Origin: Paraflavisolibacter caeni
GTDB taxonomy: Bacteria > Bacteroidota > Bacteroidia > Chitinophagales > Chitinophagaceae
Reading direction: 5' to 3'
Length of the DNA stretch: 64,000 nucleotides
Assembly (NCBI RefSeq): GCF_025628885.1
Contig: NZ_JAOTIF010000019.1
Span: 62,001 to 126,000, forward strand
Below the pieces are notes generated by a model. It ran no database searches. It was given only the letters and a program-made list of their open reading frames with translations, and had not been told where the DNA came from. Each line of letters starts with the position of its first letter. Within the stretch, counting starts at the first letter, position 1. Positions 10,324-28,590 of the stretch are shown here, one piece after another. The translations under genes and the position numbers were made by a program.

Positions 10324-11436
10324 ATGTCTAAAGTAGCATTGATTACCGGTGTGACCGGCCAGGATGGAGCCTACTTATCTGAACTCCTGTTAGAAAAAGG
10401 ATATGAGGTTCATGGCATCAAAAGAAGATCCTCTCTTTTTAATACTGATCGTATTGACCATTTGTATCAAGATCCCCATGAGCGTAACGTGCGCTTTAAA
10501 CTCCATTATGGTGATCTGACCGACTCTACCAACCTGATCCGCATCATCCAGGAAGTACAACCAGATGAGATCTATAACCTAGGAGCCATGTCTCATGTAA
10601 AGGTGAGCTTCGATACTCCAGAGTACACCGCCAATGCAGATGGCATCGGCACCTTAAGGCTACTGGAAGCTATCCGTATTCTTGGATTGGAGCAAAAGAC
10701 CAGGATCTACCAGGCCTCTACCTCTGAGCTCTATGGACTTGTTCAGGAAATCCCTCAAAAAGAGACCACTCCTTTTTATCCTCGCTCTCCATACGCAGTA
10801 GCCAAGATGTATGCCTACTGGATCACTGTAAACTACCGGGAAGCTTACAACATGTTTGCCTGCAATGGGATTCTCTTTAACCATGAAAGTCCCTTAAGAG
10901 GTGAAACCTTTGTGACCCGAAAGATCACTCGCGGTGTAGCCCAAATCGCACTGGGGCTTACTGATAAGCTTTACATGGGAAATATAGATGCCAAAAGAGA
11001 CTGGGGGCATGCCAAAGATTATGTAGAAGCCATGTGGCTGATCCTGCAACAGGACAAACCAGAAGACTACGTCATTGCTACCGGCATTACTACTCCTGTA
11101 AGAGAGTTTATCAAAATGGCTTTTGAGGAAGTAGGTGTACAAGTGGCGTTCAGTGGTGAAGGGGTTAACGAAGTAGGAATTGTGGCCTCCTGCACGGATG
11201 AATACCACTTTGCTGTAGGACAAGAGGTGGTGAAAATAGATCCCCGGTATTTCCGTCCAACAGAAGTAGACCTGCTCATTGGAGATCCCTCTAAGGCACA
11301 ACAGAAGCTGGGCTGGAAACCTAAGTATACCCTAAAGGAAATGATCACTGAAATGGTGGCTGCAGACCTCAGTGCTTTCAAAAGAGAGCAGTTGCTGATC
11401 AATAATGGTTTCCAGGTAGCCAGGCAATATGAATAA
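10324..11436 (+). CDS. gmd: GDP-mannose 4,6-dehydratase
   Basis: First step of GDP-L-fucose synthesis: GDP-D-mannose to GDP-4-keto-6-deoxymannose. The 370-residue length is typical. Visible signatures are [12 protein letters not shown] at the NADP-binding N-terminus, the active-site region [10 protein letters not shown], the YAVAK catalytic Tyr-Lys pair, and [17 protein letters not shown]. It is followed after 45 bases by fcl, so the pair can make GDP-L-fucose for the GT11 fucosyltransferase downstream. Confidence 0.97.
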
Positions 11437-11481: not shown

Positions 11482-12423
11482 ATGGACAAGAATAGTAAAA
11501 TCTATATAGCAGGACACAGAGGTATGGTGGGCAGTGCCCTCTTGAGAAAATTGGAAGCAGAAGGCTTTAACAATTTTGTACTGCGTACTTCCAAAGAGTT
11601 AGACCTCAGGAACCAGGAAGCAGTAGCCCAATTTTTTGCAGAAGAGAAGCCGGAATACGTATACCTGGCGGCCGCCAAGGTGGGTGGTATTGTGGCTAAC
11701 AATACCTACCGGGCTGAGTTCTTGTATGATAACCTGATGATTGAGAGCAACATCATTCACCAGGCATATGTACATGAAGTCAAGAAATTAATGTTCCTGG
11801 GTTCTTCCTGTATTTACCCTAAGCTGGCACCCCAGCCACTCAAGGAAGAGTACCTGCTCACAGGACCTTTGGAGAACACGAATGAGCCCTATGCCATAGC
11901 CAAGATAGCAGGAATTAAAATGTGTGATGCTTACCGGGATCAGTATGGCTGCAATTTTATTTCAGTAATGCCTACCAACCTGTATGGTCCTAATGATAAT
12001 TATGACCTTAACAATTCTCATGTACTACCGGCACTTCTAAGAAAGTTTCATGATGCCAAAGAAAGAGGAGATGGGGAAGTGGTTGTTTGGGGTAGTGGTA
12101 CACCCAAAAGAGAATTTTTGCATGCAGATGATTTGGCAGATGCATGTATATACTTGATGCAAACTTATAATGAGTCGGGTCTTGTGAACATAGGAGTAGG
12201 TGAGGATATTAGCATCAAAGAACTCGCTTACCTTATTAAAGGCATCGTGGGCTTTGAAGGCGATGTGATATTTGACGCTACTAAACCTGATGGCACTCCC
12301 AGAAAACTCATGGATGTTTCCAAACTTAAAAGTCTTGGTTGGTCAGCTTCCATCACACTCAAAGAAGGAATTGAAAGTGTGTATCAAGAAAAATTTGATA
12401 AACACGATATTGTAAATAGTTAA
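11482..12423 (+). CDS. fcl: GDP-L-fucose synthase
   Basis: Bifunctional 3,5-epimerase/4-reductase completing GDP-L-fucose. The 313-residue product starts with the NADP-binding motif [11 protein letters not shown], has [18 protein letters not shown] with the conserved Ser and Cys, and the YAIAK catalytic pair. The length agrees with E. coli Fcl. Being directly after gmd and in the same operon as a GT11 gene, its product is most likely consumed in this glycan. Confidence 0.97.
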
Positions 12424-12518
12424 TTATTGGCGTTATTGAGCCATTGCGAGTTTATTGAAAGATAAAATAAGAAATTCCTAAACAAAACCTAATCTAAAAA
12501 TTAACCTTTTATACGTTG

Positions 12519-13412
12519 ATGAATACCGCTGAACTAGTAGAAGCGCCATATGTATTAGAAGAAAAACAAAAGGAAGAACATTGGACAGAGACGATTGAGC
12601 CACGTACCCGTTTACTGGATTTACGATTGAAAGAAGTATGGCGATACCGCGATCTTATAGCGATGTTTGTACGCCGAGACTTTATTGCTACTTATAAGCA
12701 AACTATACTTGGCCCACTTTGGTTTTTCATTCAGCCGCTCCTTACTTCAATTACTTTTGTGATCATCTTTGGGCGAGTAGCGAAAATATCTACAGATGGA
12801 ATGCCGATGATGGTTTTTTACTTGTCGGGTATAACTATTTGGAATTATTTTTCACAGACACTAACGGCTACGTCTACCATTTTTACGGCTAATGCAAATA
12901 TTTTTGGTAAGGTGTATTTTCCAAGGCTGACTTTACCACTTTCTTTGATCATTTCTAATTTAGTTCGATTTTCTATACAATTCGTACTCTTCCTTTGCGT
13001 TTGGCTATATTATATTATTAAAGGTTCTGCAATTCAGCCCAACTGGGCAATTGTACTAACTCCTGTTTTGCTGGTACTTATGGGGCTGCTATCACTTGGC
13101 GTAGGTATGATCTTCAGTTCCATGACAACAAAGTATCGAGATTTGACAATGTTGTTACAGTTTGGTATACAACTGTTAATGTATGCAACTCCCGTTATTT
13201 ATCCTCTTTCTGCGCTACCTCAAAAATATAAATTGTTCATTCTGGCTAATCCTGTAAGTCCTATTGTGGAAACATTCCGTTATGCATTTTTAGGCTCTGG
13301 TAACTTAAGCTGGGGGCTTCTTTGTTATAGCATAGGTATTACAAGCTTAATTCTCTTCTTTGGGATTATTACTTTTAATAAAGTAGAGAAAAGCTTTATG
13401 GATACGGTATAA
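12519..13412 (+). CDS. wzm: Wzm-like ABC polysaccharide exporter, permease
   Basis: ABC-2-type membrane component of 297 residues with about six hydrophobic segments and the motifs RRDFIATYKQTILGPLWFF (near residues 50-68) and NPVSPIVETFRYAFLG near the C-terminus, as in O-antigen and teichoic acid exporters. It moves lipid-linked glycan across the inner membrane together with the ATPase encoded next. The ATG at 12519 is preferred over an adjacent upstream TTG. An A+T-rich gap of about 95 bases separates it from fcl. Confidence 0.92.
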   Translation: MNTAELVEAPYVLEEKQKEEHWTETIEPRTRLLDLRLKEVWRYRDLIAMFVRRDFIATYKQTILGPLWFFIQPLLTSITFVIIFGRVAKISTDGMPMMVFYLSGITIWNYFSQTLTATSTIFTANANIFGKVYFPRLTLPLSLIISNLVRFSIQFVLFLCVWLYYIIKGSAIQPNWAIVLTPVLLVLMGLLSLGVGMIFSSMTTKYRDLTMLLQFGIQLLMYATPVIYPLSALPQKYKLFILANPVSPIVETFRYAFLGSGNLSWGLLCYSIGITSLILFFGIITFNKVEKSFMDTV

Positions 13413-13516: not shown

Positions 13517-14803
13517 ATGAGTGATATTGCTATAAAAGTAGAAAACTTAGGTAAGCTGTACCGTTTAGGAGAAGTCGGAACCGGAACTTTAAGCCAGGAT
13601 TTAAAACGTTGGTGGGCCATAAATAGAGGCAAAGAGGATCCATTTGCTAAAATTGGAGAGGCTAATGACCGTACCACAAAAGGTGCAAGTGATTTTGTTT
13701 GGGCTTTAAAAGATGTAAGCTTTGAAGTAAAGCAAGGCGAGGTCTTGGGTATAATTGGTCGTAATGGAGCTGGAAAAAGTACGCTATTAAAACTTTTATC
13801 GAAAGTTACAGCGCCTAGCACTGGGAACATAAAAGTGAAAGGTCGAATCGCCTCATTATTGGAAGTAGGTACGGGTTTTCATCCTGATCTTACCGGTAGG
13901 GAAAACGTATTCCTGAATGGAGCCATTCTTGGCATGTCAAGGAAAGAAATCAATAGCAAGTTTGATGAAATAGTAGATTTTGCTGGTGTAGAACGATATA
14001 TTGATACACCTGTAAAAAGATATTCTTCGGGTATGTATGTACGTTTGGCATTTGCAGTAGCAGCTTTCTTAGAACCGGAGATTTTGATTGTAGATGAAGT
14101 TTTGGCAGTAGGTGATGCAGAGTTTCAAAGGAAATGCCTTGGCAGAATGAGAGATGTTAGCAAAAATGACGGAAGAACAGTTTTGTTTGTGAGTCATAAT
14201 ATGGCAGCAGTTCAAAAATTATGTAATAGGGGGATATTTTTTAGAAATGGACAAATACATTTAACAGGTGAGATAGACCATGTGATATCTAAATATTTAG
14301 AGAGTAGTGATGCAATTCGTTCAATATATGAAATTCCAAAACCAGACTTTACTCCTGAAAACTTGGGATTCGCTTATTGCTTAAAAGTAGAAGATATTAA
14401 TGGTAATTTAATTAATGAAATACCTGTTGGAAAGGCTTGGCAGATTAGAGTGCAATTCAAACTTAATAAAAAAGTAGAACACTTTATTATCGCTTTAGGT
14501 ATTGTTAATACAATGGATGTAAACTTAAGAACAACTTGGAGTAAAGAAATGGATTTGGATGCAGGTGAATATGAAGCTTTGTTTAAAGAAGACCAATTAT
14601 TATTAGCTGCCGGAACATATCAACTAGCATTAGGATTATCTTCTTATGAAAGAGCTTTTCAGTATATAGAAAATGTAGCAGCTATAACAATTTCAGATGT
14701 TCCTGATTCAACTCTTGATAAAAGTATAGTAAGAACAACTGGTGTAGGGTTAATATTAAATCCAATGGACATTGAAATTTTGAACTTGACAAAATCAATA
14801 TGA
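13517..14803 (+). CDS. wzt: Wzt-like ABC polysaccharide exporter, ATPase with C-terminal glycan-binding domain
   Basis: ATP-binding partner of the permease, 428 residues. Walker A GRNGAGKST is at 81-89, the signature YSSGMYVRLAFA at about 173-184 and Walker B ILIVDEVLAVGD at about 192-203. The extra region from about 270 to the end matches the layout of Wzt proteins with a C-terminal beta-sandwich that recognises a modified chain end. This agrees with methyltransferase-like genes downstream that could cap the chain. Its stop overlaps the next start (ATGA), and the sequence becomes noticeably A+T-richer from its 3' third onward. Confidence 0.92.
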   Translation: MSDIAIKVENLGKLYRLGEVGTGTLSQDLKRWWAINRGKEDPFAKIGEANDRTTKGASDFVWALKDVSFEVKQGEVLGIIGRNGAGKSTLLKLLSKVTAPSTGNIKVKGRIASLLEVGTGFHPDLTGRENVFLNGAILGMSRKEINSKFDEIVDFAGVERYIDTPVKRYSSGMYVRLAFAVAAFLEPEILIVDEVLAVGDAEFQRKCLGRMRDVSKNDGRTVLFVSHNMAAVQKLCNRGIFFRNGQIHLTGEIDHVISKYLESSDAIRSIYEIPKPDFTPENLGFAYCLKVEDINGNLINEIPVGKAWQIRVQFKLNKKVEHFIIALGIVNTMDVNLRTTWSKEMDLDAGEYEALFKEDQLLLAAGTYQLALGLSSYERAFQYIENVAAITISDVPDSTLDKSIVRTTGVGLILNPMDIEILNLTKSI

Positions 14804-16047: not shown

Positions 16048-16755
16048 ATGTTAAAGTTAATAAGCAAAGTCCTGATAAAGATTGCAAGGATCCTTTATGA
16101 TGATAGTAATCATTTATCAAATTCAATAATTTCTTCGGTACCAGAACGTTCTATTCAAGAAATCAGGGCTGAAAAATGGTTTAAAGATAAAGGGGATAAA
16201 ACTCATAGATTGAATTATGAATTAAACGAAAATTCAATAGTTTTTGATGTTGGAGGGTATGAAGGGCAATGGGCCAGTGATATTTTTTCAAAGTTTCTGT
16301 GTAATATCCACATTTTTGAACCTTATCAAGAATATGCAAAGAATATCCAGGATCGGTTTAAAAGAAATAAAAAAATATACGTTCACTCATTTGGGCTATC
16401 CAATATCACGAATACTTCAAAATTGTCATTATTAAATGATTCTTCTTCTTTATTCAAATCAGAAGCTAACGCTACAGATGTTGAAATTATTGAAGCAGCA
16501 GGCTTTATAGACGAGAATCAAATAGATAAAATAGATTTAATGAAGATCAATATAGAAGGAGGCGAGTATGATTTACTAGACCATTTAATAGATAAAGGAT
16601 TAATTAAAAAAATTGAAAATATTCAGATTCAATTTCACGATTTTGTTACCGATGCTGAAATGAGGATGCGATCAATACAATCAAAACTAAGCAAGACGCA
16701 TTATGTTACCTATCAGTATGAATTTGTTTGGGAAAACTGGGCACTTAAAAAATAG
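16048..16755 (+). CDS. FkbM-family methyltransferase
   Basis: SAM-dependent O-methyltransferase of 235 residues. VFDVGGYEGQWASDIF (about 67-82) is motif I, IHIFEPYQEY (about 90-99) the adjacent acidic strand, and DKIDLMKINIEGGEYDLL (about 163-180) the family's characteristic IDxEGxE region. FkbM proteins are common in polysaccharide loci. Here it could methylate a sugar hydroxyl, possibly at the non-reducing end recognised by the Wzt C-terminal domain. It ends directly before the GT11 start, with no gap. Confidence 0.87.
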   Translation: MLKLISKVLIKIARILYDDSNHLSNSIISSVPERSIQEIRAEKWFKDKGDKTHRLNYELNENSIVFDVGGYEGQWASDIFSKFLCNIHIFEPYQEYAKNIQDRFKRNKKIYVHSFGLSNITNTSKLSLLNDSSSLFKSEANATDVEIIEAAGFIDENQIDKIDLMKINIEGGEYDLLDHLIDKGLIKKIENIQIQFHDFVTDAEMRMRSIQSKLSKTHYVTYQYEFVWENWALKK

Positions 16756-17646
16756 ATGGTTATTGTTAAATTACAAGGTGGCTTAGGCAACCAGATGTTT
16801 CAATATGCTACAGCAAGAAGTATCTGTAAGGGATTTGAAAAGGTAATTTTAGATCCGTCATTTTTGTTAGAGAATCATACTTCTACAGAATTCTTTACAG
16901 CAAGAAGATACGAGCTAGAAATTTTCAAAAATTTGAATGCTAGACTTGCAAATACTTTTTGGCAGCAGATTATTCACAACAAAAGAGTTTATTTTAGAGC
17001 TGCAAAAAAAATAATCTGCAACAATTTTAGGTATGTTAAACAGGTAGGAAATGAAATTCTAGAATTTGACCTAAATAAAGGTTCAACCCTTTATTTAGAT
17101 GGATATTTTCAGAGTGAAAAGTATTTCCATTATAATCGGAATCAATTACTACAAGAATTTGCATTTTCTTCATTAGATATTGAAAACATTACACAATTAA
17201 ATCAAATTCAGTCTTATTCGAATCCTGTGAGCATCCACATAAGACGTGGAGATTATTTAAAACCTCATGTATTGAATTACCATGGTATATTGCCTATTAA
17301 CTACTACAAAAAAGCAATTGAAGCATTAGAAACAACTGTAAGTAATCCTCATTATTTTATCTTTTCTGATGATATTGGATGGTGCAGAGAGAATCTTTCA
17401 TTTATCTCAGGTCGATATACAATAATGGAAGTAGATAACTCAAGGGAATCTTGGAAAGATATGTGCTTAATGACACATTGCAAACACCATATAGTAGCAA
17501 ATAGCAGCTTTAGCTGGTGGGGCGCCTGGCTTTCTCAAAAAAAGGGCATCAATATGGCCCCTTATAAATGGTTTAATCCAGCAGTAGTAAGTTTTAATAT
17601 ACATGATTTTGTTCCATCGTCCTGGTCGATAGTTAATTATGAGTAG
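16756..17646 (+). CDS. GT11 alpha-1,2-fucosyltransferase
   Basis: Predicted to transfer L-fucose from GDP-fucose to the 2-OH of galactose. The 296-residue product has the GT11 hallmarks: VKLQGGLGNQMFQYATARS at the N-terminus, the donor-binding motif HIRRGDYL (about 161-168), and ANSSFSWWGAWLS near residue 255. The donor is supplied by gmd and fcl in the same locus. A GT6-family gene lies two genes downstream, and GT6 enzymes use fucosylated galactose (H antigen) as acceptor, so the two probably act in sequence. The stop overlaps the following GT2 start by 8 bases. Confidence 0.95.
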   Translation: MVIVKLQGGLGNQMFQYATARSICKGFEKVILDPSFLLENHTSTEFFTARRYELEIFKNLNARLANTFWQQIIHNKRVYFRAAKKIICNNFRYVKQVGNEILEFDLNKGSTLYLDGYFQSEKYFHYNRNQLLQEFAFSSLDIENITQLNQIQSYSNPVSIHIRRGDYLKPHVLNYHGILPINYYKKAIEALETTVSNPHYFIFSDDIGWCRENLSFISGRYTIMEVDNSRESWKDMCLMTHCKHHIVANSSFSWWGAWLSQKKGINMAPYKWFNPAVVSFNIHDFVPSSWSIVNYE

Positions 17647-18577
17647 TGTATCCGTAATTATGCCTGCATATAATGCAGCAAAATATATATCAGCAAGTAT
17701 AGAAAGTGTTCTTCAGCAAACATATTCTAATTGGGAGTTAATTGTAGTTGATGATGGTTCAAAAGATGATACTAAAGCTATTGTGCTAGCGTATGTCCAA
17801 AAAGATAACCGTATAAAATACCATTGGCAACCAAATGGTAAGTTAGGAAATGCAAGAAATTCAGGAATAAGAAATGCAACAGGCAAATGGATAACATTTT
17901 TAGATTCAGATGATCTATGGGCTTGTAACAAATTAGAAAAGCAAATTGAAGCAGCTCATAAGAATAAAGATGTGGATGTAATTTTTACAGGGGGGTATTT
18001 TTTTAATGATGATGATTTGACAAAATTAACACCTTACCCAACACTCTTAGGCAAATTTGGGCCAAAGGAAATGTACAAATTGGAATATCAAAGTAACTAT
18101 ATAGCCAATCTTTCTGTAATGGTGAAGAGAGAATATATAGATAAGATTGGATTTCAGGATGAGCATCGATTCATTTATGGATGTGAGGATTGGGATTATT
18201 GGATCAGATTGGCTAAAGGTGGAGCTACTTTTCTCGGGATTGAAGATCAGTTATTCTATTATCGGCGGCATTCTTCAAACATGTCAAATGATCATCTTAC
18301 AATGCGCATAGCCGAGGCTTTTGTTTATATAAAAAACTTTGTACCTGATCTTCTTCCAGAAGACTTTAAAGAAATAAAGTACAATAACTTTTTTGTTCCC
18401 TTGATAGAGGAGCTGTTGTCAAAAAACAAAATTGAAGAAGTAAAATATATAGCAAGCAAATATGCAACTATAGAACCTTCGTTTTATAAAAAAATGTACA
18501 AATTTATCATTACTATATTAGGAAGAAAGGCTTACTATCCCTGTAAAGTTATAAATAAAGTGAGATCAACAATTTGA
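17639..18577 (+). CDS. GT2-family glycosyltransferase
   Basis: Inverting GT-A glycosyltransferase of 312 residues, cytoplasmic or membrane-associated. The nucleotide-binding N-terminus has VSVIMPAYNAAKYISASI and ELIVVDDGSKDDT. LDSDDLW (about 92-98) is the DxD metal and sugar-nucleotide site, and EDWDYWIRLAKGG (about 183-195) is the usual downstream acidic motif. Donor and acceptor cannot be inferred. It sits between the GT11 and GT6 genes, so it may build part of the same side chain. Confidence 0.9.
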   Translation: MSSVSVIMPAYNAAKYISASIESVLQQTYSNWELIVVDDGSKDDTKAIVLAYVQKDNRIKYHWQPNGKLGNARNSGIRNATGKWITFLDSDDLWACNKLEKQIEAAHKNKDVDVIFTGGYFFNDDDLTKLTPYPTLLGKFGPKEMYKLEYQSNYIANLSVMVKREYIDKIGFQDEHRFIYGCEDWDYWIRLAKGGATFLGIEDQLFYYRRHSSNMSNDHLTMRIAEAFVYIKNFVPDLLPEDFKEIKYNNFFVPLIEELLSKNKIEEVKYIASKYATIEPSFYKKMYKFIITILGRKAYYPCKVINKVRSTI

Positions 18578-18666
18578 ATAAATAGAATAGAATCCCTTCA
18601 AGTAATAAAGGTAAATTAATCCTCTCTAGAATATCTAAAAGTAAAATTATATACACATAAATTGAT

Positions 18667-19440
18667 ATGAAGAAAGTTGCAATCTTATATATATGTACAG
18701 GGAGATATACTATATTTTGGAAAGAGTTTTATGAAAGGTGTGAAAAGTTTTTCCTTGAAGGATACAGAAAAGAATATTTTGTTTTTACAGATGGAGAAAT
18801 CAGAGAAAGGAATGATAGAATACATATCATAGAACAAAAGCAACTGGGTTGGCCTTTTGATACATTGATGCGCTTCAAAATGTTTATGAGAGTTGAGACC
18901 AAATTGCCTGAGTTTGATTACATTTTCTTTTTAAATGCTAATATGTATTTTCAAAAGCCAGTAGGTGTAGAGGTATTGCCTGAAGTCGAAGATGGAGGAT
19001 TAATGGCTGTAAAACATCCAGGATTTTATAATAAAAGTAATGAGGAATATACCTATGAAAGGAATCCATCCTCTAACGCTTATATTCCTGAAGGTAAAGG
19101 CGAGTATTATTTTATGGGAGGATTTAACGGTGGTCGATCAAAAGAATATTTACAGCTAATAGAAAGTCTAGATCATCAGATTAAAGCGGATTTAGATAGA
19201 GATATTATTGCCATCTGGCATGATGAATCACATTTGAATAAGTACTTACTTGACCGAAAATGTAAGGTGCTAGACCCGTCTTACGGATACCCAGAAGGCT
19301 GGAATATACCCTTTGAACCCAAAATTATAATATGTGATAAATCAAAGTTGGGAGGGCATGATTTATTACGTAGTCCTAAGAAGTTGCCTGTTCTACAAAA
19401 AATAAGAAACTGGGTGCAGGCCAGGGTGAATTGTTTTTAA
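18667..19440 (+). CDS. GT6-family (ABO-like) glycosyltransferase with NxN motif
   Basis: Predicted retaining alpha-1,3-GalNAc or Gal transferase of 257 residues, the catalytic-domain length of bacterial GT6 enzymes. FFLNANMYF places Asn-Ala-Asn at 90-92 where mammalian ABO enzymes have DxD; NxN is the known variant of bacterial GT6 proteins. GEYYFMGGFNGG (145-156) aligns with the donor-selecting segment of human GTA/GTB, and HDESHLNKY (185-193) is the conserved catalytic-side motif. In the human numbering the residues equivalent to 266 and 268 would be Met and Gly, a mix of the B and A types. The nearby GT11, gmd and fcl genes support an H-type acceptor. Confidence 0.88.
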   Translation: MKKVAILYICTGRYTIFWKEFYERCEKFFLEGYRKEYFVFTDGEIRERNDRIHIIEQKQLGWPFDTLMRFKMFMRVETKLPEFDYIFFLNANMYFQKPVGVEVLPEVEDGGLMAVKHPGFYNKSNEEYTYERNPSSNAYIPEGKGEYYFMGGFNGGRSKEYLQLIESLDHQIKADLDRDIIAIWHDESHLNKYLLDRKCKVLDPSYGYPEGWNIPFEPKIIICDKSKLGGHDLLRSPKKLPVLQKIRNWVQARVNCF

Positions 19441-19474
19441 ATAAATATGCTACTGAAGTTATAAAGCTAATTGA

Positions 19475-20509
19475 ATGGAAAAAGAGGAAAAAAAATATCC
19501 TCGTGTTACTATTGTTATGCCTGTATATAATGCTGAAAAGCATTTAAAAGAGGCTATTGAAAGTATATTGAATCAAACATTTACAGATTTTGAATTTGTA
19601 ATCATAAATGATGGCTCGACAGATCAGTCCAAGGAGATAATAATTTCATACAGCTCTGATCCCCGTATAAAGTATTATGAAAATGATCAAAACATCGGCT
19701 TGATCAAAACTTTGAATAAGGGAATTGAAATAGCGAATGGTGAGTACATAGCAAGAATGGATGCTGATGATATTTCTTTCCCAGAACGATTGAAAAAGCA
19801 GGTAGCATACTTGGATAAATATGCTGAAGTTTCAATAGTGGGAACGTGGTTTTTATTCTCAGATTCAAAAGAAGAAGTTAAGTATCCCAATGACCATGAA
19901 TCTATAAAGGTCAAGCTATTAACGGGGAATGCGTTAGGCCATCCTACTGTACTTATGAGGAAAAGTGATATTCAACGATTAGAATTAAGATATTGTGTTG
20001 ATTATCCCGAAGCTGAAGATTACCATTTGTGGACAAATGCTGTGATGAAAGGTCTTAAAATGGCTAATTTACCAGAAGTACTTTTAAATTATAGAATTCA
20101 TAATCATCAAGTATCTAATGTAAGGGCTTCAAAGCAAAATGAAATAACCAAACGAGTAATTCTTGAATATTGGGAATATTTTTTTGCTAAATACCAATTG
20201 CAGTTTTCAGCGCAATTAAGGCATCTTTTATTTGGAAGTGTTTTTAAAAAAACTGAATATATAAATCTTATAAGGCTATGTTCAGTATTAATTGAGAAGA
20301 ATAGCGAGTTAGCAGTGTTTGATCATTCAAAGTTTGTTGATTTAATATATTCTTATCAAAAAAGGGTTACAGCCGTATTTTACACTTCTCAAAATAAATA
20401 TAAGGTTCATTACTTGCTTTTGGCACTCTATGATAAATATTTTCACAAGTTCTTATCTCCAAAGGCAAAATTTTTATTTTTTATGCGTTGCTTAAACTTG
20501 TATGGGTAG
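19475..20509 (+). CDS. GT2-family glycosyltransferase
   Basis: GT-A fold enzyme of 344 residues. VTIVMPVYNAEKHLKEAI and EFVIINDGSTDQS define the N-terminal nucleotide site, YIARMDADDIS (about 89-99) carries DxD, and PEAEDYHLWTNAV (about 173-185) the C-terminal acidic motif. The last 120 residues are basic and hydrophobic, suggesting membrane contact. The stop overlaps the next gene's start. Specificity is not recognisable. Confidence 0.9.
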   Translation: MEKEEKKYPRVTIVMPVYNAEKHLKEAIESILNQTFTDFEFVIINDGSTDQSKEIIISYSSDPRIKYYENDQNIGLIKTLNKGIEIANGEYIARMDADDISFPERLKKQVAYLDKYAEVSIVGTWFLFSDSKEEVKYPNDHESIKVKLLTGNALGHPTVLMRKSDIQRLELRYCVDYPEAEDYHLWTNAVMKGLKMANLPEVLLNYRIHNHQVSNVRASKQNEITKRVILEYWEYFFAKYQLQFSAQLRHLLFGSVFKKTEYINLIRLCSVLIEKNSELAVFDHSKFVDLIYSYQKRVTAVFYTSQNKYKVHYLLLALYDKYFHKFLSPKAKFLFFMRCLNLYG

Positions 20510-21407
20510 TATGATTGGCATAAGTGTTATTGTACCTTGTTATAATCAATCGAAGTATTTAGCTGAATGCATTCAAAGTTTACAAGCTCAAGCTTATTTA
20601 AACTGGGAATGCATTATTGTTAATGATGGGTCAACAGACGAAACAGAATCAATTGCTTCAAACCTTGTCAAAGGAGATGAACGGGTAAAATATATAAAGA
20701 AAGGTAATGGCGGGCTAAGTTCTGCAAGAAATGCAGGTTTGAAAGTTAGCGAAGGAGAGTATATTCAATTTCTGGATGCAGATGATGTAATAGGTGAAAA
20801 TAAATTTGATGAAGCTATTACAGCCTTTGATCAAAACAGTTGTGATTTGGTTATTAGCAATTTTCAATGTACAACAAAAAACTTAGAAGAAATATTACCC
20901 TCGTACTGTGACTTAAAAGGTGTAAACTTTTCCTATGAAAGTATCCTTCTAGAATGGGATAAAAGGTATACAATACCTATCCATTGTGGGATATTTAAAA
21001 GGAGCCTATTGCATGATTTTCATTTTAACGAAAATCTCAAAGCAAAAGAAGATTGGATCATGTGGCTACATATCTTCAAACTTACCAATCGTTTTGTTTT
21101 TATTGATAAACCGCATGCAAAATACAGGTTACATGGCAATGGATTAACAAATGATGCTTTGCATATGTATACCAATACTGTCAAGGCATTCAGATACATC
21201 AATAACCAGTTAGAAGAAAAATATAAGTTTGACTTTCTGAAGAAAACTAATGAGTATTGGGAAGAAAAGATAATCGAACTTGATCAGTTTAAAAAAGATT
21301 TGATGGCATCCAGAAGTTATAAATTGTCATCTGGTATTGTGCGCATATATGCATTGATTTATAAAAAGTTTTTTAATGTGAGGCATGCTAACAGTAATCA
21401 TTCCTAA
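20502..21407 (+). CDS. GT2-family glycosyltransferase
   Basis: GT-A enzyme of 301 residues. ISVIVPCYNQSKYLAECI, ECIIVNDGSTDET and the DxD-bearing QFLDADDV (about 90-97) are clear. KAKEDWIMWLHIF is the acidic motif near residue 184. The ATG at 20502 overlaps the previous stop by 8 bases; a second in-frame ATG at 20511 would start one base after that stop and also gives a complete domain. Its own 3' end overlaps the next GT2 gene by 23 bases. Sugar specificity is unknown. Confidence 0.9.
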   Translation: MGSMIGISVIVPCYNQSKYLAECIQSLQAQAYLNWECIIVNDGSTDETESIASNLVKGDERVKYIKKGNGGLSSARNAGLKVSEGEYIQFLDADDVIGENKFDEAITAFDQNSCDLVISNFQCTTKNLEEILPSYCDLKGVNFSYESILLEWDKRYTIPIHCGIFKRSLLHDFHFNENLKAKEDWIMWLHIFKLTNRFVFIDKPHAKYRLHGNGLTNDALHMYTNTVKAFRYINNQLEEKYKFDFLKKTNEYWEEKIIELDQFKKDLMASRSYKLSSGIVRIYALIYKKFFNVRHANSNHS

Positions 21408-22320
21408 TTTCAATCATGCAAGATATTTAGAACAAAGGATTCAAACTGTTCTTTATCAAACCTATCAAGATTTCGAAATCATTATTTTGGATGACTGTTC
21501 CACTGATGAAAGCAGGAACGTCATTGAGAAATACCGGAATCATCCCAAAGTATCTAATATTATATTCAATGAGCAAAATAGCGGTTCCACTTTCAAACAA
21601 TGGAACAAAGGTATTGATTTAGCGAAAGGAGAAGTCATATGGATAGCAGAAAGTGACGATAAAGCTGATCCAAATTTTATAGCTACTCTCATTGGTATTT
21701 TGGATGAAGAGCCAAGAGTAGGTATTGTCTACTCCAACTCTTACTTTATTGATGAAGAGAATAATATTTTAAACACTTATAATGATACCTATGCTTCCTG
21801 GTCTAACCGTTGGGAGCAAGATTATATAAATAAAGGGAGTGATGAAGTAGTAAATTACATGCGATTTTCACCAGTTATACTTAATGTAAGTTCATGTATA
21901 TTTAGAAAGAGCATTTATGAAAGTGTAGGCAGAAGTGGTGAAAGATATAAGTTAGCAGGCGATTGGTTTACGTATGTAAAAATGCTTCAATGTGCTGATA
22001 TAGCTTATTGCGCAGATCCACTTAATTATTTCCGTTGCCATACACAAACTGTAAGAAGCAGTTCAAATCAGTTTGTTCATTTTTTTGAATCACTGAAAGT
22101 AATTTGCTATATATACCAGAACTTTCATGTTCCCTACTCAGAGAAAAAAGCACAAGTTTATAATATACTAGCACAGCTGCGTCAATTAGATTCACAATTT
22201 ACCTCTCAACAAAAGTCAGAAGTTATGTCTTATCTCCGCAAGAATCTAATGCGGAATGTTGATATATTATGGTGGAAGTATAATGCTTCCATGCAAATAA
22301 AGAAAATATTTCACGCTTAA
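21385..22320 (+). CDS. GT2-family glycosyltransferase
   Basis: GT-A enzyme of 311 residues. LTVIIPNFNHARYLEQRI and EIIILDDCSTDES form the nucleotide site. The metal motif reads AESDDKAD (about 91-98), an ExDD variant of DxD seen in part of GT2. GDWFTYVKML near residue 192 is the acidic motif region. The start lies inside the upstream GT2 gene, indicating translational coupling. Donor and acceptor are unknown. Confidence 0.88.
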   Translation: MLTVIIPNFNHARYLEQRIQTVLYQTYQDFEIIILDDCSTDESRNVIEKYRNHPKVSNIIFNEQNSGSTFKQWNKGIDLAKGEVIWIAESDDKADPNFIATLIGILDEEPRVGIVYSNSYFIDEENNILNTYNDTYASWSNRWEQDYINKGSDEVVNYMRFSPVILNVSSCIFRKSIYESVGRSGERYKLAGDWFTYVKMLQCADIAYCADPLNYFRCHTQTVRSSSNQFVHFFESLKVICYIYQNFHVPYSEKKAQVYNILAQLRQLDSQFTSQQKSEVMSYLRKNLMRNVDILWWKYNASMQIKKIFHA

Positions 22321-22330
22321 TCATTAATAC

Positions 22331-23173
22331 ATGGAGAAACCAATAAATATAGCCTTAGCGTCAGATGCGGAATACCTGATCCATGCGCGCGTAACTTTAT
22401 GTTCTTTGTTTGATTCCAACAAAAGCCGTCAATTTGCTATATACCTATTTACTGAAAGCGTTAGTCATACAGAGATTGATAAAATCAGAGAGCTTTCAGA
22501 TAAATACAATAACTCTTTTCATGTAGTGCAGATCAATAAGAAGTTATTTGAAGAGTTTTTTATCAGCGGTCATATTAGTGTTGCAACCTATTACCGGCTT
22601 CTAATACCTGAAATGTTGCCTACTGAGGTTCAGAAAGTATTATATCTTGATACTGATATTATAATAAAGAAAGACATAGAGGAGCTTTGGAAAACAGATA
22701 TTCAGAAGTATTGTTTAGCTGCAGTGGACGAGAAGAATGTTGATCATGTACAGCGATTACAACTTCCGACGGTTAATTCCTATTTCAATGCTGGTGTATT
22801 ATTAATTAACGTTCCGGTTTGGCGTCAACTCGAAGTGACAAAGAGAGGCTTACATCTTGCTAATAAATATAAAAACCAGTTATTAGCACATGATCAAGAT
22901 ATCCTAAATATGTTATTGCTTGATAATTGGATTCCATTATCACCGAAGTGGAATCAAACAGAAGGACATCGCTTAGGGAAGTTAATTGATGACCCAACAA
23001 TCATTCATTTTGTTGGTTTTAAGCCATGGACAATTCATTGTATACATCCGTATAAAAATGAATATTACCACTACTATTATAAAATGGAAGGTTTTACAAA
23101 AAAAATCAAGGATAAATACACTCATTATCTAAATGCTTTTAAAAGGAGAATTCCTTTTTTAAAGCAGAAATAA
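22331..23173 (+). CDS. GT8-family glycosyltransferase (LgtC-like)
   Basis: Retaining glycosyltransferase of 280 residues related to LPS galactosyl- and glucosyltransferases. INIALASDAEYLIHARVTLCSL at the N-terminus, YLDTDIIIKKD (about 107-117) with the DxD motif, FNAGVLLINVPVWR (about 154-167) and the late HFVGFKPW (about 221-228) match GT8 conserved blocks. The C-terminus is Lys/Arg-rich, as in LgtC-like enzymes that attach to the membrane. It likely transfers Gal or Glc; a galactose added here could be part of the acceptor chain for the GT11 enzyme, but that is inference. Confidence 0.9.
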   Translation: MEKPINIALASDAEYLIHARVTLCSLFDSNKSRQFAIYLFTESVSHTEIDKIRELSDKYNNSFHVVQINKKLFEEFFISGHISVATYYRLLIPEMLPTEVQKVLYLDTDIIIKKDIEELWKTDIQKYCLAAVDEKNVDHVQRLQLPTVNSYFNAGVLLINVPVWRQLEVTKRGLHLANKYKNQLLAHDQDILNMLLLDNWIPLSPKWNQTEGHRLGKLIDDPTIIHFVGFKPWTIHCIHPYKNEYYHYYYKMEGFTKKIKDKYTHYLNAFKRRIPFLKQK

Positions 23174-23216
23174 CTTAAATATCTATTGTTGCTTCAAATT
23201 ATTAATCCGCATCATC

Positions 23217-24143
23217 ATGTTGAAAACTCCCGTCCTATTGTTAGTGTTTAACAGGGCAGAAACAACACAGAAAGTCTTTCATACTATCAAAAAGATCCAG
23301 CCAAAACAATTGTTTATAGCAGCAGATGGACCAAGAAAAAATCATCCAGAAGATATTGAGAAGTGCGCTAACGTTCGAAAGTTAGTATTGGAACAAATCA
23401 ATTGGGATTGTGAAGTAAAAACACTTTTTAGAGATGAGAATTTAGGTTGTGGAATTGGGCCTTCGGATGCCATTACCTGGTTTTTTGAACATGTTGAATA
23501 TGGTATTATTTTAGAAGATGATTGTTTACCTTCTCAAAGTTTTTTTACTTTTTGCGAAGAACTTTTAAAAAAGTATTTCAGGGATGAAAAGGTAATGCAT
23601 ATTAGCGGTAATAATTTTCAATTCGGGAAGAAACAAGGAGATGGAAGTTATTATTTTTCTAATTACATCAATGCATGGGGGTGGGCAACCTGGCGTAGAG
23701 CATGGTCATTATATGACTTCAACATCAAAAATTATACAGACCAAACAGCAAATGCTGTGTTAGATAGAGTCCTTTCTTCCAAGGTTGAAAAGAAATTCTG
23801 GAAAGGCCATTTTGATACTGTCAAGGACGGCAAACGCAAGGATATATGGGATTACCAATGGGTTTATACTGTCTGGAATCACAATGGTATTTCCATCATT
23901 CCAAATGTAAACCTAGTGAGCAATATCGGGTTTGGTAGCGATGCAACCCATACGTTTGATTCAAAAAATATTGTAGCCAATCATCCGAGCTTTGAAATAA
24001 ATAAAATTGTTCATCCTGGAAAAATGATTATCTCAAAATCTGCAGATAAAAGGTTATTCCGAATTTGCCACCAACCAAAACTTACCTTAAGAGATCGCGC
24101 CTACCTGGTTAAAAAAGAAATATTGAAACTGATAAAAATTTAG
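23217..24143 (+). CDS. GNT-I-like nucleotide-diphospho-sugar transferase
   Basis: Protein of 308 residues with PVLLLVFNRAETTQKVF at the N-terminus and YGIILEDDCLPSQSFF (about 98-113), whose EDD is the metal and sugar-nucleotide motif of GNT-I-like GT-A proteins common in Bacteroidetes surface-glycan loci. WGWATWRRAW (about 156-165) is another shared motif. Homologues are often named hemolytic protein HlpA-like, which says little about function. It probably adds one sugar of this glycan. Confidence 0.8.
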   Translation: MLKTPVLLLVFNRAETTQKVFHTIKKIQPKQLFIAADGPRKNHPEDIEKCANVRKLVLEQINWDCEVKTLFRDENLGCGIGPSDAITWFFEHVEYGIILEDDCLPSQSFFTFCEELLKKYFRDEKVMHISGNNFQFGKKQGDGSYYFSNYINAWGWATWRRAWSLYDFNIKNYTDQTANAVLDRVLSSKVEKKFWKGHFDTVKDGKRKDIWDYQWVYTVWNHNGISIIPNVNLVSNIGFGSDATHTFDSKNIVANHPSFEINKIVHPGKMIISKSADKRLFRICHQPKLTLRDRAYLVKKEILKLIKI

Positions 24144-24170
24144 ATTTTGTAGTCCTCCTATAAATAAAGA

Positions 24171-25304
24171 ATGATGAGAATACTATTGGATCCTCAAATC
24201 TTCATCAATCAGAAGGTAGGTGGAGTATCACGTCAATTTGTTGAAGTTTGGCATCGTTTAAAGAAATATAACGATATAGAAGTTTATTCTCCACTAGTAT
24301 TTTCAGAGAATTACCATTTAGAATCTTCTCCTGTAAAATTGCGCAATCCTTTAAATCTTTTGCACCATAAGCAATTCAAGGGGATGGGGAAGATAAAAGA
24401 AACACTAAACCATGTGTCACTATTCAGCACTAAGAAATTATTAAATAGTAATTTCTTCCAGGTCTTCCTGCCTACTTATTACGATCCATATTTCGAAAGC
24501 TCCCTGAAAGACACTCCTCTAGTGCTTTCTGTTTTCGATATGATTCATGAATTATATCCCCAATATTTTCCAGGTGATCATAAAACCATAAATAATAAAA
24601 AAAGCTTACTATATAGAGCCGACAGGATCATTGTACATTCCAATCAGACTAAAAAAGATATTATAAAATTCTATCCAGACCTGGATACATCAAAAATTGA
24701 TCTTGTTCCACTAGCGAGTTCTGTTATACTAAATGATTCCACGCAAATAACAGCGCCGGAATTAATTAATCGTCCTTATCTTTTATTTGTTGGTACGAGG
24801 GATAAGTATAAAAACTTTTCTTTTTTGCTACGTTCAATTGAAAGACTCTTGCATAGAAATGACCTATACCTGATCTGTGCTGGGGGAGGTGTTTTTACTT
24901 CTGAAGAAAAATCTCTCATAGATAAACTGGGGCTCTCAGAAATGGTTGCCCAAATTACAATTCAAGACCAACTGCTTCCTTTATTTTACCGGAATGCCCG
25001 CGCTTTTATTTTTCCTTCAGAGTATGAAGGATTTGGAATGCCTGTATTAGAAGCAATGGCCTGCGGTTGTCCGGTTATTTTATCAGATAATGGAGTTTTC
25101 CGTGAAATTGGAGAAGAAGCGGCTCTTTATTTTAACCTGAATGATGAGCAAATGCTAAACCATTGTGTGGAAAGGGTTCTTGAAGATCAGTCACTACGGG
25201 ATTATCTGATTAAAGAAGGCTTTAAGAGGGAAAAATTATTTTCCTGGGATAAAACAGCAAGGGGTTATTATGAAACAATCATGAAACTAATGAGCCATAA
25301 ATGA
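24171..25304 (+). CDS. GT4-family glycosyltransferase
   Basis: GT-B enzyme of 377 residues. The N-terminal half includes GGVSRQFVE near residue 17 for acceptor binding. The C-terminal donor domain has YLLFVGTRDKYKNF (about 203-216) and the E-x7-E motif FPSEYEGFGMPVLEAM (about 280-295). The ending resembles mannosyltransferases of group 1, but donor prediction is not safe. A start at 24171 (ATGATG) is used; starting at the second ATG removes only one residue. Confidence 0.9.
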   Translation: MMRILLDPQIFINQKVGGVSRQFVEVWHRLKKYNDIEVYSPLVFSENYHLESSPVKLRNPLNLLHHKQFKGMGKIKETLNHVSLFSTKKLLNSNFFQVFLPTYYDPYFESSLKDTPLVLSVFDMIHELYPQYFPGDHKTINNKKSLLYRADRIIVHSNQTKKDIIKFYPDLDTSKIDLVPLASSVILNDSTQITAPELINRPYLLFVGTRDKYKNFSFLLRSIERLLHRNDLYLICAGGGVFTSEEKSLIDKLGLSEMVAQITIQDQLLPLFYRNARAFIFPSEYEGFGMPVLEAMACGCPVILSDNGVFREIGEEAALYFNLNDEQMLNHCVERVLEDQSLRDYLIKEGFKREKLFSWDKTARGYYETIMKLMSHK

Positions 25305-25367
25305 TGATGTTTTAGCAGGCTTACGAACAATATAGCCTACTAAATTTATTTATTAGTCGAATCAACA

Positions 25368-26357
25368 ATGATGGAATTACCCAAGATTTCTATAATAACG
25401 CCTTCATTTAACCAAGGCCAATATATAGAGCAAACCATACTTTCTGTTTTGGAACAGAACTATTCTAACCTCGAATATATAATTATTGATGGGGGCAGTA
25501 CAGACAATACCATTGAAGTAATCAAAAAGTATAATAAGTATATCAGTTTCTGGAAGAGTGAAAAAGACAGGGGACAAAGTGATGCGATCAATAAAGGTCT
25601 TAAACTTGCATCTGGTGAAATTATCAACTGGCTGAATAGCGATGATTATTATATGCCGGGCGCTCTTCAGCATGTTGCTTCAGTTTTTGCAGATCCAGGA
25701 GTTACAGTTTATTGTGGCCGTAGCCGTGTATTTTCTTCTGGATTCGAGTATTTATCTCAAGGAACCGATTTATATAAGGGAAATTTAGCCAAAACAATTG
25801 GTTGGGCACGAATTGATCAACCAGAAACATTTTTTCGTAAAAAGGTATGGGATATAATAGAGAATGTGAATGAAAACTTTCATTATGTAATGGATAAAGA
25901 GTTGTGGATAAGGTATCTTTTGCATTTTGGTTTGGATGGAATAGCAAAAGATGAGAAGGTGCTGGTGAATTTTAGAATACATGGTCAATCAAAAACGGGG
26001 TCCCAACAGGAAAAGTTCAGACAGGAAACTTTTAACCTCTTTTATTCGCTTGCGACTCAGTTTGGATTGCCTAATGCAGAGAAGTTAAGTTCACTATATG
26101 AAGTTCAACAAAAAAAGATTTTCGGTTTAGAAAATATAAATAGTGCTTTCAGTGAGCATGTAATTGAATATTTTTTATTGCGCGTCTTTTTAGAAGCATA
26201 TGCAGAAAACAATTATACTATAGCAAAAGAAGCAGAGAAACTTATCAATAGAAAGCAATTGATGGATGAAGACAATACAGTGTTAAGAAAAGTATCTTTT
26301 CGAATGAAACTTTTACCTGTCGGTGCAAGGAAGCTTTTGAAAAAGATGATGAAATAA
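25368..26357 (+). CDS. GT2-family glycosyltransferase
   Basis: GT-A enzyme of 329 residues. ISIITPSFNQGQYIEQTIL and YIIIDGGSTDNT mark the nucleotide site. NWLNSDDYYMPGAL (about 88-101) has an NSDD variant of the metal motif, typical of this WcaA-like branch. YVMDKELWIRYLL (about 172-184) follows as the acidic motif. The C-terminal 100 residues are helical and lack a known domain. A gap of 227 bases follows. Confidence 0.9.
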   Translation: MMELPKISIITPSFNQGQYIEQTILSVLEQNYSNLEYIIIDGGSTDNTIEVIKKYNKYISFWKSEKDRGQSDAINKGLKLASGEIINWLNSDDYYMPGALQHVASVFADPGVTVYCGRSRVFSSGFEYLSQGTDLYKGNLAKTIGWARIDQPETFFRKKVWDIIENVNENFHYVMDKELWIRYLLHFGLDGIAKDEKVLVNFRIHGQSKTGSQQEKFRQETFNLFYSLATQFGLPNAEKLSSLYEVQQKKIFGLENINSAFSEHVIEYFLLRVFLEAYAENNYTIAKEAEKLINRKQLMDEDNTVLRKVSFRMKLLPVGARKLLKKMMK

Positions 26358-26584
26358 TTAAAAGCTATTTTCATAATTGTATTTAATTGATAAACAGGAT
26401 TGTAAATAAGATTACGAAAATAGTACTTAGGGATTATTTAAGTTTTAAAGAACATCAGTAGGATTGTCATAAGGCATTACTTTGGCGCTTCAATAAATAC
26501 GCCTTCTGGGAAGGCGAAAAATCTTACCAAGCGGTGTACCTTGATTGCTATAGGTAGAACGGTTGATTAATAAGTGCATAAATA

Positions 26585-27502
26585 ATGAAGGTTTCAGTTA
26601 TTATACCGACATATAATGGAAAACATCGTATAGGTAATCTCCTGTCAACATTAGCCAACCAAACATTTCAAGTTTCTGAGGTGATTGTAGTTATTGACGG
26701 AAGCACAGATGGAACAAAGGAATATTTAGAGCAAGGAGATTTTGGGTTTACATTTTCAATATTTGTACAGAATAATAAAGGTCGGGCTGTTGTAAGGAAT
26801 AAAGGGGCAGAACTTGCAACTGGAGACCTTTTGATTTTTTTTGACGACGATATGCGCTTGGAGCCCAATTGCATTGAACAGCATATCTGCCATCATCAAA
26901 AACATCCAAACAGCATATTGACTGGTGCGCAAATTGATGATTATAAGAAAGCAAGTTCAGACTTTTTGAAATACAAGTGCTGGTTAAGCCGTAAATGGTC
27001 AGATCCATTAAATGCATATAAAGGGCAGCCACTGCCATTAAATAACCTGCATCTTACAGCTGCAAACTTTTCTATCGCAAAAGAGTTGTTTGTAAAATTA
27101 GGTGGCTTCGACTCAAGGTTAAGGGATGCAGAAGATTTTGATTTAGCGATAAGAGCTTATAAAGCTAATGTGTCGATTTACTATAAACATGAGGCATTTG
27201 CATGGCATGACGATATAGTAACAGCAACTTCCTACATCAAAAGGTTGCGACAGTATCAATTTGCGCATAGAACTCTGAGGCGTATAAAGCCAGAAATATA
27301 TCATAATATTGAGCTTAGAGAACCTGTCCAGCCTCATGGTTTAAAAAAAGTTTTATTTTCTCTTTTTTCAAATAAACTTTTTCTGGACATCATTGATCGA
27401 CGTTCTAACAGATTAGTGTTTCTTCCCAGAATATTCAGGTATAAGCTCTATGACCTGGTTACGACATCTTATGGTGTTTTTTTTACTGATCGACCAATAT
27501 AA
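26585..27502 (+). CDS. GT2-family glycosyltransferase
   Basis: GT-A enzyme of 305 residues. VSVIIPTYNGKHRIGNLL and VIVVIDGSTDGT form the nucleotide site, with LIFFDDDMRLEP (about 83-94) carrying DxD. GGFDSRLRDAEDFDLAIRAY (about 174-193) matches the galactosyltransferase-like C-terminal block of GT2, including the ED pair. It starts after the largest gap inside the operon and may have its own promoter (weak box near 26484). It ends 7 bases before the next gene. Confidence 0.9.
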   Translation: MKVSVIIPTYNGKHRIGNLLSTLANQTFQVSEVIVVIDGSTDGTKEYLEQGDFGFTFSIFVQNNKGRAVVRNKGAELATGDLLIFFDDDMRLEPNCIEQHICHHQKHPNSILTGAQIDDYKKASSDFLKYKCWLSRKWSDPLNAYKGQPLPLNNLHLTAANFSIAKELFVKLGGFDSRLRDAEDFDLAIRAYKANVSIYYKHEAFAWHDDIVTATSYIKRLRQYQFAHRTLRRIKPEIYHNIELREPVQPHGLKKVLFSLFSNKLFLDIIDRRSNRLVFLPRIFRYKLYDLVTTSYGVFFTDRPI

Positions 27503-27509
27503 TTGATAT

Positions 27510-28586
27510 ATGGAAAGGTATAGGGTTGCACATATCATCAATAATCTTTCAAGGGGTGGGGCAGAAGTACTTTTAAAGAGTACTATTAACTTGTTTCCTG
27601 AATATGAGCATCTAATCATTTATTTACATCCTCCTGCCGAATTAAGGGAGGAACTGGAAGGAAAGGCTTGTTTCATTTGTTTACACCACACTTCTTGGAA
27701 GCAGCTATTTAGTACTCGAAAAAGGATTAAAAATATTATTAGAGACTGGCAGCCGCATATTATTCATGCTCACCTTTTTGATAGTACACTTCTTGCAAGG
27801 TTATCCAAAGTTTCAAGAATACCTATAGTTTCCACTATTCATAGTACTTATAGTATTGATGCCTTTAGAAAAAGTAAAAAGGCCTTAATACTTGAAAGAC
27901 TGACTGTAAATAAGCAGCAGGGGCTAATTGGCGTATCCGGATTTGCGTTAAATGACTATCTTGAACAGGTGTCATTTAAGGGGAAGACATATGTCTTGCA
28001 TAATTTTTTACCCGAAAGAAATTTTGCGGCAAAACCTGAATGCTATCATAAAAGTGAAGAATTGAAGTGCGTGGCTGTAGGCAATTTAAAGGAAGCAAAG
28101 AATTATTTTTACCTTTTAGAAGCTTTTACTCTTTTAAAAGATTATAGGATCACATTGGATATTTATGGAGAAGGGCCCTTAAGAGAGCTTTTAACAAATT
28201 ACATAAATGAAAAGGAGCTAAGGGTTCGATTGTGTGGACAAGCAGGATATGTATTGAATGTGTTACCAAACTATAATCTCTTTTTACAGGCTTCATCACA
28301 TGAGGGCTTTGGAATTTCTGTTGCCGAAGCCATGGCGTTGAAACTGCCAGTTTTAATTTCTGATATTCCTGTATTTCGGGAAATTACTGATGGGCAAGCT
28401 CACTTTTTCCCATTAAATAACGTAAATGAACTCGCTACCATACTGAAAAGCTTATCTCAAGACGAAACAAAAAGAACCCAATTTGTTCATAATGCTTATG
28501 AGCAAATCTGCAAGATCAGTTCGGAAGAAAATTATAAAAAAAATCTTCACGAGATATATTCATTTTTTATTCAACCTAAAAGCTAA
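27510..28586 (+). CDS. GT4-family glycosyltransferase
   Basis: GT-B enzyme of 358 residues. The acceptor domain begins VAHIINNLSRGGAEVLL, the glycine-rich GGAE being typical of GT4. The donor domain shows CVAVGNLKEAKNYFYLLEAF (about 190-209) and the E-x7-E motif SSHEGFGISVAEAMALKLPV (about 262-281). It ends 4 bases before the asnB-like gene, so the two are probably translated from one message. Sugar specificity is unknown. Confidence 0.9.
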   Translation: MERYRVAHIINNLSRGGAEVLLKSTINLFPEYEHLIIYLHPPAELREELEGKACFICLHHTSWKQLFSTRKRIKNIIRDWQPHIIHAHLFDSTLLARLSKVSRIPIVSTIHSTYSIDAFRKSKKALILERLTVNKQQGLIGVSGFALNDYLEQVSFKGKTYVLHNFLPERNFAAKPECYHKSEELKCVAVGNLKEAKNYFYLLEAFTLLKDYRITLDIYGEGPLRELLTNYINEKELRVRLCGQAGYVLNVLPNYNLFLQASSHEGFGISVAEAMALKLPVLISDIPVFREITDGQAHFFPLNNVNELATILKSLSQDETKRTQFVHNAYEQICKISSEENYKKNLHEIYSFFIQPKS

Positions 28587-28590
28587 ATGA

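Follow-up and report, generated by a model that had tools for sequence, protein, structure and literature searches.

We analysed a 64,000-nucleotide stretch of the Paraflavisolibacter caeni genome (contig NZ_JAOTIF010000019.1, positions 62,001 to 126,000; hereafter the window), in which a polysaccharide locus encodes two glycosyltransferases, one of family GT11 and one of family GT6, with a single GT2 gene between them. An earlier note on this DNA had predicted that the pair would place a structure like the human blood group A or B antigens on the surface glycan. The genes on which this prediction turns are listed below; the donor sugars are guanosine diphosphate (GDP)-fucose and the uridine diphosphate (UDP) forms of galactose (Gal) and N-acetylgalactosamine (GalNAc), the latter made from that of N-acetylglucosamine (GlcNAc).

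16756..17646, + strand: GT11 fucosyltransferase, predicted alpha-1,2 to Gal (PF01531)
17639..18577, + strand: GT2 glycosyltransferase between GT11 and GT6 (PF00535, E=6.2e-41)
18667..19440, + strand: predicted GT6 alpha-1,3-GalNAc/Gal transferase, NXN type (PF03414, NF041524, PDB 4ayj)
10324..11436, + strand: gmd, GDP-mannose 4,6-dehydratase (TIGR01472, 611.7 bits, cut-off 415)
11482..12423, + strand: fcl, GDP-L-fucose synthase (NF047922, 512.4 bits, cut-off 500)
7356..8321, + strand: probable UDP-GlcNAc/GalNAc 4-epimerase of the WbpP/WbgU/TviC group (PDB relatives)

The GT11 and GT6 genes, their donors and the GT6 active site

In Pfam profile searches, the open reading frame (ORF) at 16756-17646 (296 amino acids) scores 129.2 bits against PF01531 (cut-off 23.9, E=2.4e-37) and the ORF at 18667-19440 (257 amino acids) scores 144.2 bits against PF03414 (cut-off 25, E=5.1e-42). 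Both values exceed the curated cut-offs, and the family calls of the earlier note hold. The profile search by which, according to that note, the prediction could fail likewise placed the protein inside GT6, as the NCBIfam model NF041524 ("family 6 glucosyltransferase") is matched at 330.7 bits (cut-off 250). When the PDB set was ranked for this protein, the Bacteroides ovatus enzyme BoGT6a came first (4ayj, E=3.7e-79), followed by ABO transferases at E values of about 2e-37, which bears out the suggested kinship to the human enzymes. An artefact of the profile as the source of the GT6 assignment was rejected on the matches to PF03414 and NF041524 and to BoGT6a and ABO in the PDB. A search of the whole 7.0 Mb genome (E <= 0.001) returned one GT6 match and one GT11 match. 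Among the ten rows listed from a comparison of the 16S sequence with plasmid records, Rufibacter ranks first (82.8% identity), and the top rows point to Bacteroidota; 4 of the 519 records, outside these ten rows, have a place at 90-95% identity.

The GT11 translation contains the stretch HIRRGD, which we take to be a GT11 motif. The ATG of the gene directly abuts the end of an FkbM ORF (16048-16755), and the two are in one frame. The whole-genome GT11 match contains one TAG while the GT11 ORF itself is open; we take this TAG to be the stop of the preceding in-frame FkbM gene. At its other end the GT11 ORF overlaps the GT2 ORF by 8 bases. This GT2 gene is the only one that separates GT11 from GT6, so that the description of GT6 as lying two genes on was correct. 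No NCBIfam model among the 25 listed for the GT2 product exceeds its cut-off, the top one being TuaG (142.5 bits against 400). The GT2 gene is a candidate for transfer of the underlying Gal.

The GDP-fucose genes gmd and fcl were both confirmed above their NCBIfam cut-offs. The 4-epimerase at the head of the locus, which the earlier note had proposed as a source of UDP-GalNAc, appears suited to that role: its nearest named solved relatives are WbpP (1sb8, E=1.6e-104) and WbgU (3ru7, E=4.3e-97). The top PDB match (10ke, E=2.7e-106) carries no name more specific than "Capsular polysaccharide biosynthesis protein", and the scores against the curated NCBIfam models TviC (359.8 bits, cut-off 760) and GalE (172.8 bits, cut-off 262.3) are both below cut-off. 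A galE above its cut-off (395.8 bits) is present elsewhere in the genome, outside the window. With the WbpP/WbgU-like epimerase and galE, the cell can probably make both candidate GT6 donors, UDP-GalNAc and UDP-Gal. One locus holds the GDP-fucose genes together with GT11 and GT6, which is the gene content of a blood-group A/B synthesis module.

The closest solved relative of the window GT6 is BoGT6a (PDB 4ayj, 4ayl, 4cj8, 4cjb, 4cjc), with which it shares family, NXN motif and 53.0% identity (124 of 234 aligned columns). The motif is N90-A91-N92 in the window GT6 and stands at the position of the DXD of the animal enzymes. The catalytic Glu187, in the stretch W184-H185-D186-E187 (WHDE), corresponds to BoGT6a Glu192. 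Of the 18 donor contacts of BoGT6a (Table 2 of PMC3961637), 17 are identical in the window GT6; the sole difference is Asp65 in place of N69. Given the 53% identity to 4ayj, the window GT6 is expected to have a GT-A fold, and it would work without a metal ion. BoGT6a is reported to move GalNAc to 2'-fucosyllactose, giving a blood-group-A-like product (PMC3961637).

Donor choice in the ABO enzymes depends on positions that include 266, where the A enzyme has Leu and the B enzyme Met, and 268, where they have Gly and Ala respectively (PMC4202792). We placed these two of the four ABO donor positions (the others being 176 and 235) on the printed ABO chain; in the alignment, Met150 of the window GT6 stands at ABO 266 and is B-like, and Gly152 stands at ABO 268 and is A-like. 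Met150 replaces Ala155 of BoGT6a. Gly152 aligns with BoGT6a Gly157, whose backbone contacts GalNAc (PMC3961637). Because of Gly152 and the WbpP/WbgU-like epimerase in the locus, GalNAc appears favoured over Gal as the donor, though the choice is not settled: Met150 and the galE elsewhere in the genome count toward Gal.

Linkage of GT6 and GT11 in Bacteroidota and beyond

We surveyed three overlapping genome draws (family, phylum and order), with the window's genome counted in each. The family draw of 294 genomes yielded 10 with GT6, the phylum draw of 395 yielded 3 and the order draw of 396 yielded 12, in all 19 distinct GT6-positive genomes; in the window's own genus it occurs in one of the five listed genomes, the window's only. 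GT11 is present in 17 of the 19 (9/11 plus 8/8), or in 16 of 18 when the window's own is left aside. In every one of these 17 genomes, which belong to 11 genera, the nearest GT11 lies close to the GT6 match, with a gap of 115-3337 bp between matched stretches. In other genomes, some GT6 loci combine Wzt, gmd and fcl that are 69-79% identical with a GT6 and a GT11 of much lower similarity.

Two GT6-positive genomes have no GT11 match. In G028 the GT6 match is a short, stop-containing piece. In G166 the GT6 gene (L034:9277-10125) encodes a DXD protein that is 26.7% identical to the window GT6 and perhaps uses another acceptor. A readable NXN motif is found in 16 Bacteroidota GT6 rows, all 16 with a GT11 neighbour; vr23, G774 and G028 are excluded from the motif counts as misread or fragmentary. 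The GT6 tree includes vr23 and G774 and excludes G028, and two viral contig loci (L026 and L028, see below) were left out of the GT6 alignment rows and tree. The trees are poorly resolved, with 5 of 24 inner branches well supported for GT6 and 6 of 23 for GT11, and in neither tree is the window protein placed in a supported group that spans half the rows or fewer.

Pairing of the two families by chance is unlikely. GT11 occurs in 73 of the 294 genomes of the family draw, namely in 8/10 GT6-positive genomes vs 65/284 GT6-negative genomes (Fisher p=3e-4); when the window genome is removed, GT11 is found in 7/9 of the GT6-positive genomes (p=1e-3). As controls we located GT8 and GT32 (PF04488) in the 73 GT11-positive genomes of this draw, the Pfam cut-off being reached by 19/23 GT8 and 8/8 GT32 places. 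None of the 23 GT8 places was seen within 3.4 kb of GT11 and three were within 10 kb; for GT32 the corresponding counts are 0/8 and 2/8 (G223, G045). Six of the GT8 places and five of the GT32 places are on a contig with a GT11 match, and there the control gene is never nearer than 4.5 kb. An origin of the nearness of GT6 and GT11 merely in shared residence in polysaccharide loci is not favoured against these controls, which cover two families only.

The pair is also found outside Bacteroidota. On a Candidatus Gracilibacteria contig, the one relative found in a scan of genome contigs, an NXN-type GT6 frame overlaps a GT11 frame. Of seven IMG/VR loci compared, GT11 lies inside the fetched stretch in five, including L028, whose GT6 is split over two overlapping frames; none was found in the fetched stretches of L025 and L026, which have identical positions and scores. 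In the phage collection, a GT6 relative is present in 71 records (69 listed) and GT11 in 103 (60 listed). The 38 records that occur in both listings have the two genes 0-1482 bp apart in every case (38/38), although these records are not independent, as 19 are of the ACG-2014f type and some of the others appear in both GenBank and RefSeq; the comparison thus covers 38 of the 71 GT6 records. GT11 occurs without a listed GT6 in 22 of the 60 listed GT11 records.

The carriers include Synechococcus and Prochlorococcus phages (B23, Bellamy, S-CAM9, P-SSM2 and others). In Synechococcus phage B23 (L041:5216-6723) both families were confirmed by Pfam. The two genes overlap or adjoin in B23 and in other cyanophage records, and the B23 GT6 is annotated as hypothetical. 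The cyanophage pairs resemble the window pair in family and in spacing; they differ in lying in phage genomes and in the GT6 motif, which is DXD in the readable phage and viral contig rows B23, L024, L025, L027 and L029 and NXN in the window. NXN was read in L042 (MT838506.1), a 7.7 kb scaffold from human faeces labelled "bacteriophage" that encodes Wzm-, Wzt-, GT2- and GT6-like proteins. GT11 was not found on the 7.7 kb of this scaffold, which is probably bacterial in origin. Bacterial GT6 enzymes, together with members in marine metagenomes and in two cyanophages, have already been described (PMC3961637). For cyanophage S-SCSM1, an alpha-1,2-fucosyltransferase and GDP-fucose genes are listed, and the words "blood group" do not occur in the available part of that paper (PMC9602691).

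The combination was regarded as unusual in the earlier note. As worded, this view was not supported by the survey, in which the pair recurs in 11 sampled Bacteroidota genera and in cyanophages, and the two activities together are already known from Escherichia coli O86 and Helicobacter mustelae, as is a GT6 of this kind from B. ovatus. The uncommon element is GT6 itself. We found no statement in the literature that GT6-GT11 linkage is a rule in Bacteroidota or cyanophages, in a search that was incomplete.

Layout of the polysaccharide locus

The pair is part of a long locus whose other genes are as follows.

3574-4074: NusG-like, at the head of the locus
4125..7356, + strand: polysaccharide export protein (Wza-like) and Wzz/GNVR protein (Wzc-like) (PF02563, PF02706, PF13807)
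12516..13412, + strand: Wzm-type membrane subunit of an ATP-binding cassette (ABC) exporter (PF01061, E=2.3e-17)
13517..14803, + strand: Wzt-type ABC exporter ATPase with C-terminal Wzt_C domain (PF00005; PF14524, 38.2 bits, cut-off 30.4)
16048..16755, + strand: FkbM-family methyltransferase (PF05050, E=9.7e-11; TIGR01444, 59.9 bits, cut-off 37.7)
19475..33893, + strand: remaining glycan assembly block (five GT2, one GT8 and four GT4 genes, an asparagine synthase-like gene and two ORFs without family)

The head of the locus runs in the order NusG-like, Wza-like, Wzc-like, epimerase, rfbB, rfbA, gmd, fcl, Wzm, Wzt. Wzt is followed by a gene for a hexapeptide-repeat transferase and by a small ORF whose match to a methyltransferase-type family is weak; the FkbM methyltransferase comes next, and then GT11, GT2 and GT6. 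The rfbB and rfbA genes are at 8342-10307; as listed, rfbA begins within rfbB, and its family match starts only at residue 25. Neither rfbC nor rfbD was seen among the window ORFs scanned for families.

Within 16756-33893 there are 13 recognised glycosyltransferase genes, and the glycan is therefore expected to be complex. Two ORFs of the assembly block, 23217-24143 and 30603-31418, have no Pfam or NCBIfam match and may be glycan-related by position only. The Wzm/Wzt pair with its Wzt_C domain suggests ABC-type export, and Wza- and Wzc-like genes coexist with it in the locus. The listed genes in 14800-28586 have a G+C content of 30.1-36.4%, compared with 35.2-51.9% for the other listed genes and 40.6% for the whole window. 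Low G+C of this kind is known from exchanged surface-polysaccharide islands. Further downstream, the window encodes a 1114-amino-acid protein (41130-44474) whose only Pfam match (E <= 0.01) is a partial UDPGP domain at residues 891-1010; its gene adjoins a nucleotidyltransferase-like gene.

A predicted blood-group A/B-type trisaccharide

We consider it likely that GT11 and then GT6 would build a blood-group-A- (or B-) type branched trisaccharide on a surface polysaccharide. GT11 would add L-fucose in alpha-1,2 linkage to a beta-galactose of the growing glycan, with GDP-fucose supplied through gmd and fcl. GT6 would next add GalNAc (or Gal) in alpha-1,3 linkage to the same galactose in a metal-free reaction, and the resulting glycan would be a cell-surface polysaccharide, probably exported by Wzm/Wzt. 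At the level of sequence, this reading is supported by the families, the active-site residues, the donor genes and the tight GT6-GT11 genomic linkage. The idea of the earlier note that GT11 makes the acceptor for GT6 appears strengthened by the co-localisation in 17 of the 19 GT6 genomes. The bonds formed, which enzyme acts first, which sugar GT6 transfers, its independence of metal, and the export and display of the glycan are predicted, and the reactions themselves are deduced from BoGT6a, from WbnI and from the pair in H. mustelae.

WbnI and WbwK are the GT6 and GT11 enzymes of the E. coli O86:B7 O-antigen. In that system GT11 builds the H-type structure, and the acceptor of GT6 is Fuc-alpha-2-Gal (PMC4202792, PMC4982269); the B epitope of E. 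coli O86 belongs to the repeat unit (PMC4982269). A difference is that WbnI transfers Gal (PMC4202792), and the likeness is one of published function. In H. mustelae, the GT6 gene HMU12050 and HMU12060, the only predicted fucosyltransferase gene, have adjacent locus numbers, and strains display blood group A on lipopolysaccharide (PMC2846917). This case is likewise compared by its published features and differs in that a host-associated role in the ferret stomach has been proposed (PMC2846917). The earlier note had put the A/B-like structure at the tip of the glycan; the trisaccharide predicted from the window may equally well branch off every repeat unit or stand at the chain end, and neither the exporter type nor the 13 glycosyltransferases decides this.

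Several points weigh against a shared A/B-type product. GT11 is not strictly an alpha-1,2 family, as a Helicobacter hepaticus GT11 enzyme makes Lewis x (PMC4202792); with this known alpha-1,3 member, the family call alone leaves the linkage predicted. Among the rows of the GT11 tree, the best identity of the window GT11 to any other is 36%. GT11 without GT6 is common (the 65 GT6-negative genomes above). The 17 genomes with both families are not independent, five being from one genus (g276), and G774 is a weak positive, with its GT6 match in two pieces and the adjacent GT11 on the opposite strand with a stop. The controls are partly weak, since 17 of the 23 GT8 and three of the eight GT32 places are on contigs without a GT11 match and some assemblies are fragmented, so that neighbours were possibly unseen. 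Finally, in a locus of 13 glycosyltransferases the pair need not share one galactose.

That last point, together with the GT2 gene between GT11 and GT6, would fit an arrangement in which the two enzymes decorate different residues of one complex glycan and no A/B-type trisaccharide is formed. The DXD-type GT6 of G166, without a GT11 match, adds that a GT6 can perhaps use another acceptor. The window GT6, however, belongs to the type of BoGT6a and not to that of G166, and GT11 is within 3.4 kb of GT6 in 17/19 genomes vs none of the GT8 or GT32 places; we regard separate decoration as unlikely. We give still less credence to the view that GT6 and GT11 only travel together in variable polysaccharide islands and are not coupled biochemically. 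The low G+C of 14800-28586 is as in exchanged loci, and other glycosyltransferases also cluster in that stretch. Against it, GT8 and GT32 stay at least 4.5 kb from GT11 wherever they share a contig with it, although a polysaccharide-locus setting is known for 5 of the 31 control places only, by a GT11 within 10 kb, and in the 38 compared phage records GT11 and GT6 are separated by 1482 bp at most.

If GT6 acts after GT11, its product could still be B-type (Gal) instead of A-type, or both. This is a sub-case of the sequential reading and its probability overlaps with that reading; we hold it possible but rather doubtful. It is favoured by Met150, as Met stands at ABO 266 in the B enzyme (PMC4202792), by the presence of galE, and by WbnI as a bacterial GT6 that transfers Gal (PMC4202792). 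Gly152, which is as in the A enzyme and matches the GalNAc-contacting Gly157 of BoGT6a, and the UDP-GlcNAc/GalNAc-like 4-epimerase at the head of the locus speak for the A-type.

The survey turns a single guess into a regularity, yet makes the window case less unusual than first thought. It suggests a rule by which a bacterial NXN-type GT6 is accompanied by a GT11 neighbour (16/16 readable Bacteroidota NXN rows), and GT6 genes could therefore help in searching genomes for A/B-type polysaccharides. Cyanophages emerge from it as further carriers of the GT11-GT6 pair. Bacterial A/B-type sugars are relevant to how human antibodies against A and B arise and to which structures viruses and lectins that bind blood groups encounter in nature. 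Tentatively, and with less confidence than in the trisaccharide itself, GT11 and GT6 might be a mobile two-enzyme module for A/B-type epitopes that serves microbes in general at their surface and has moved between Bacteroidota, a Gracilibacteria genome and cyanophages without the involvement of an animal host. If so, animal mimicry would be a late application of a structure that is widespread in microbes and phages and has perhaps been retained to switch phage receptors.

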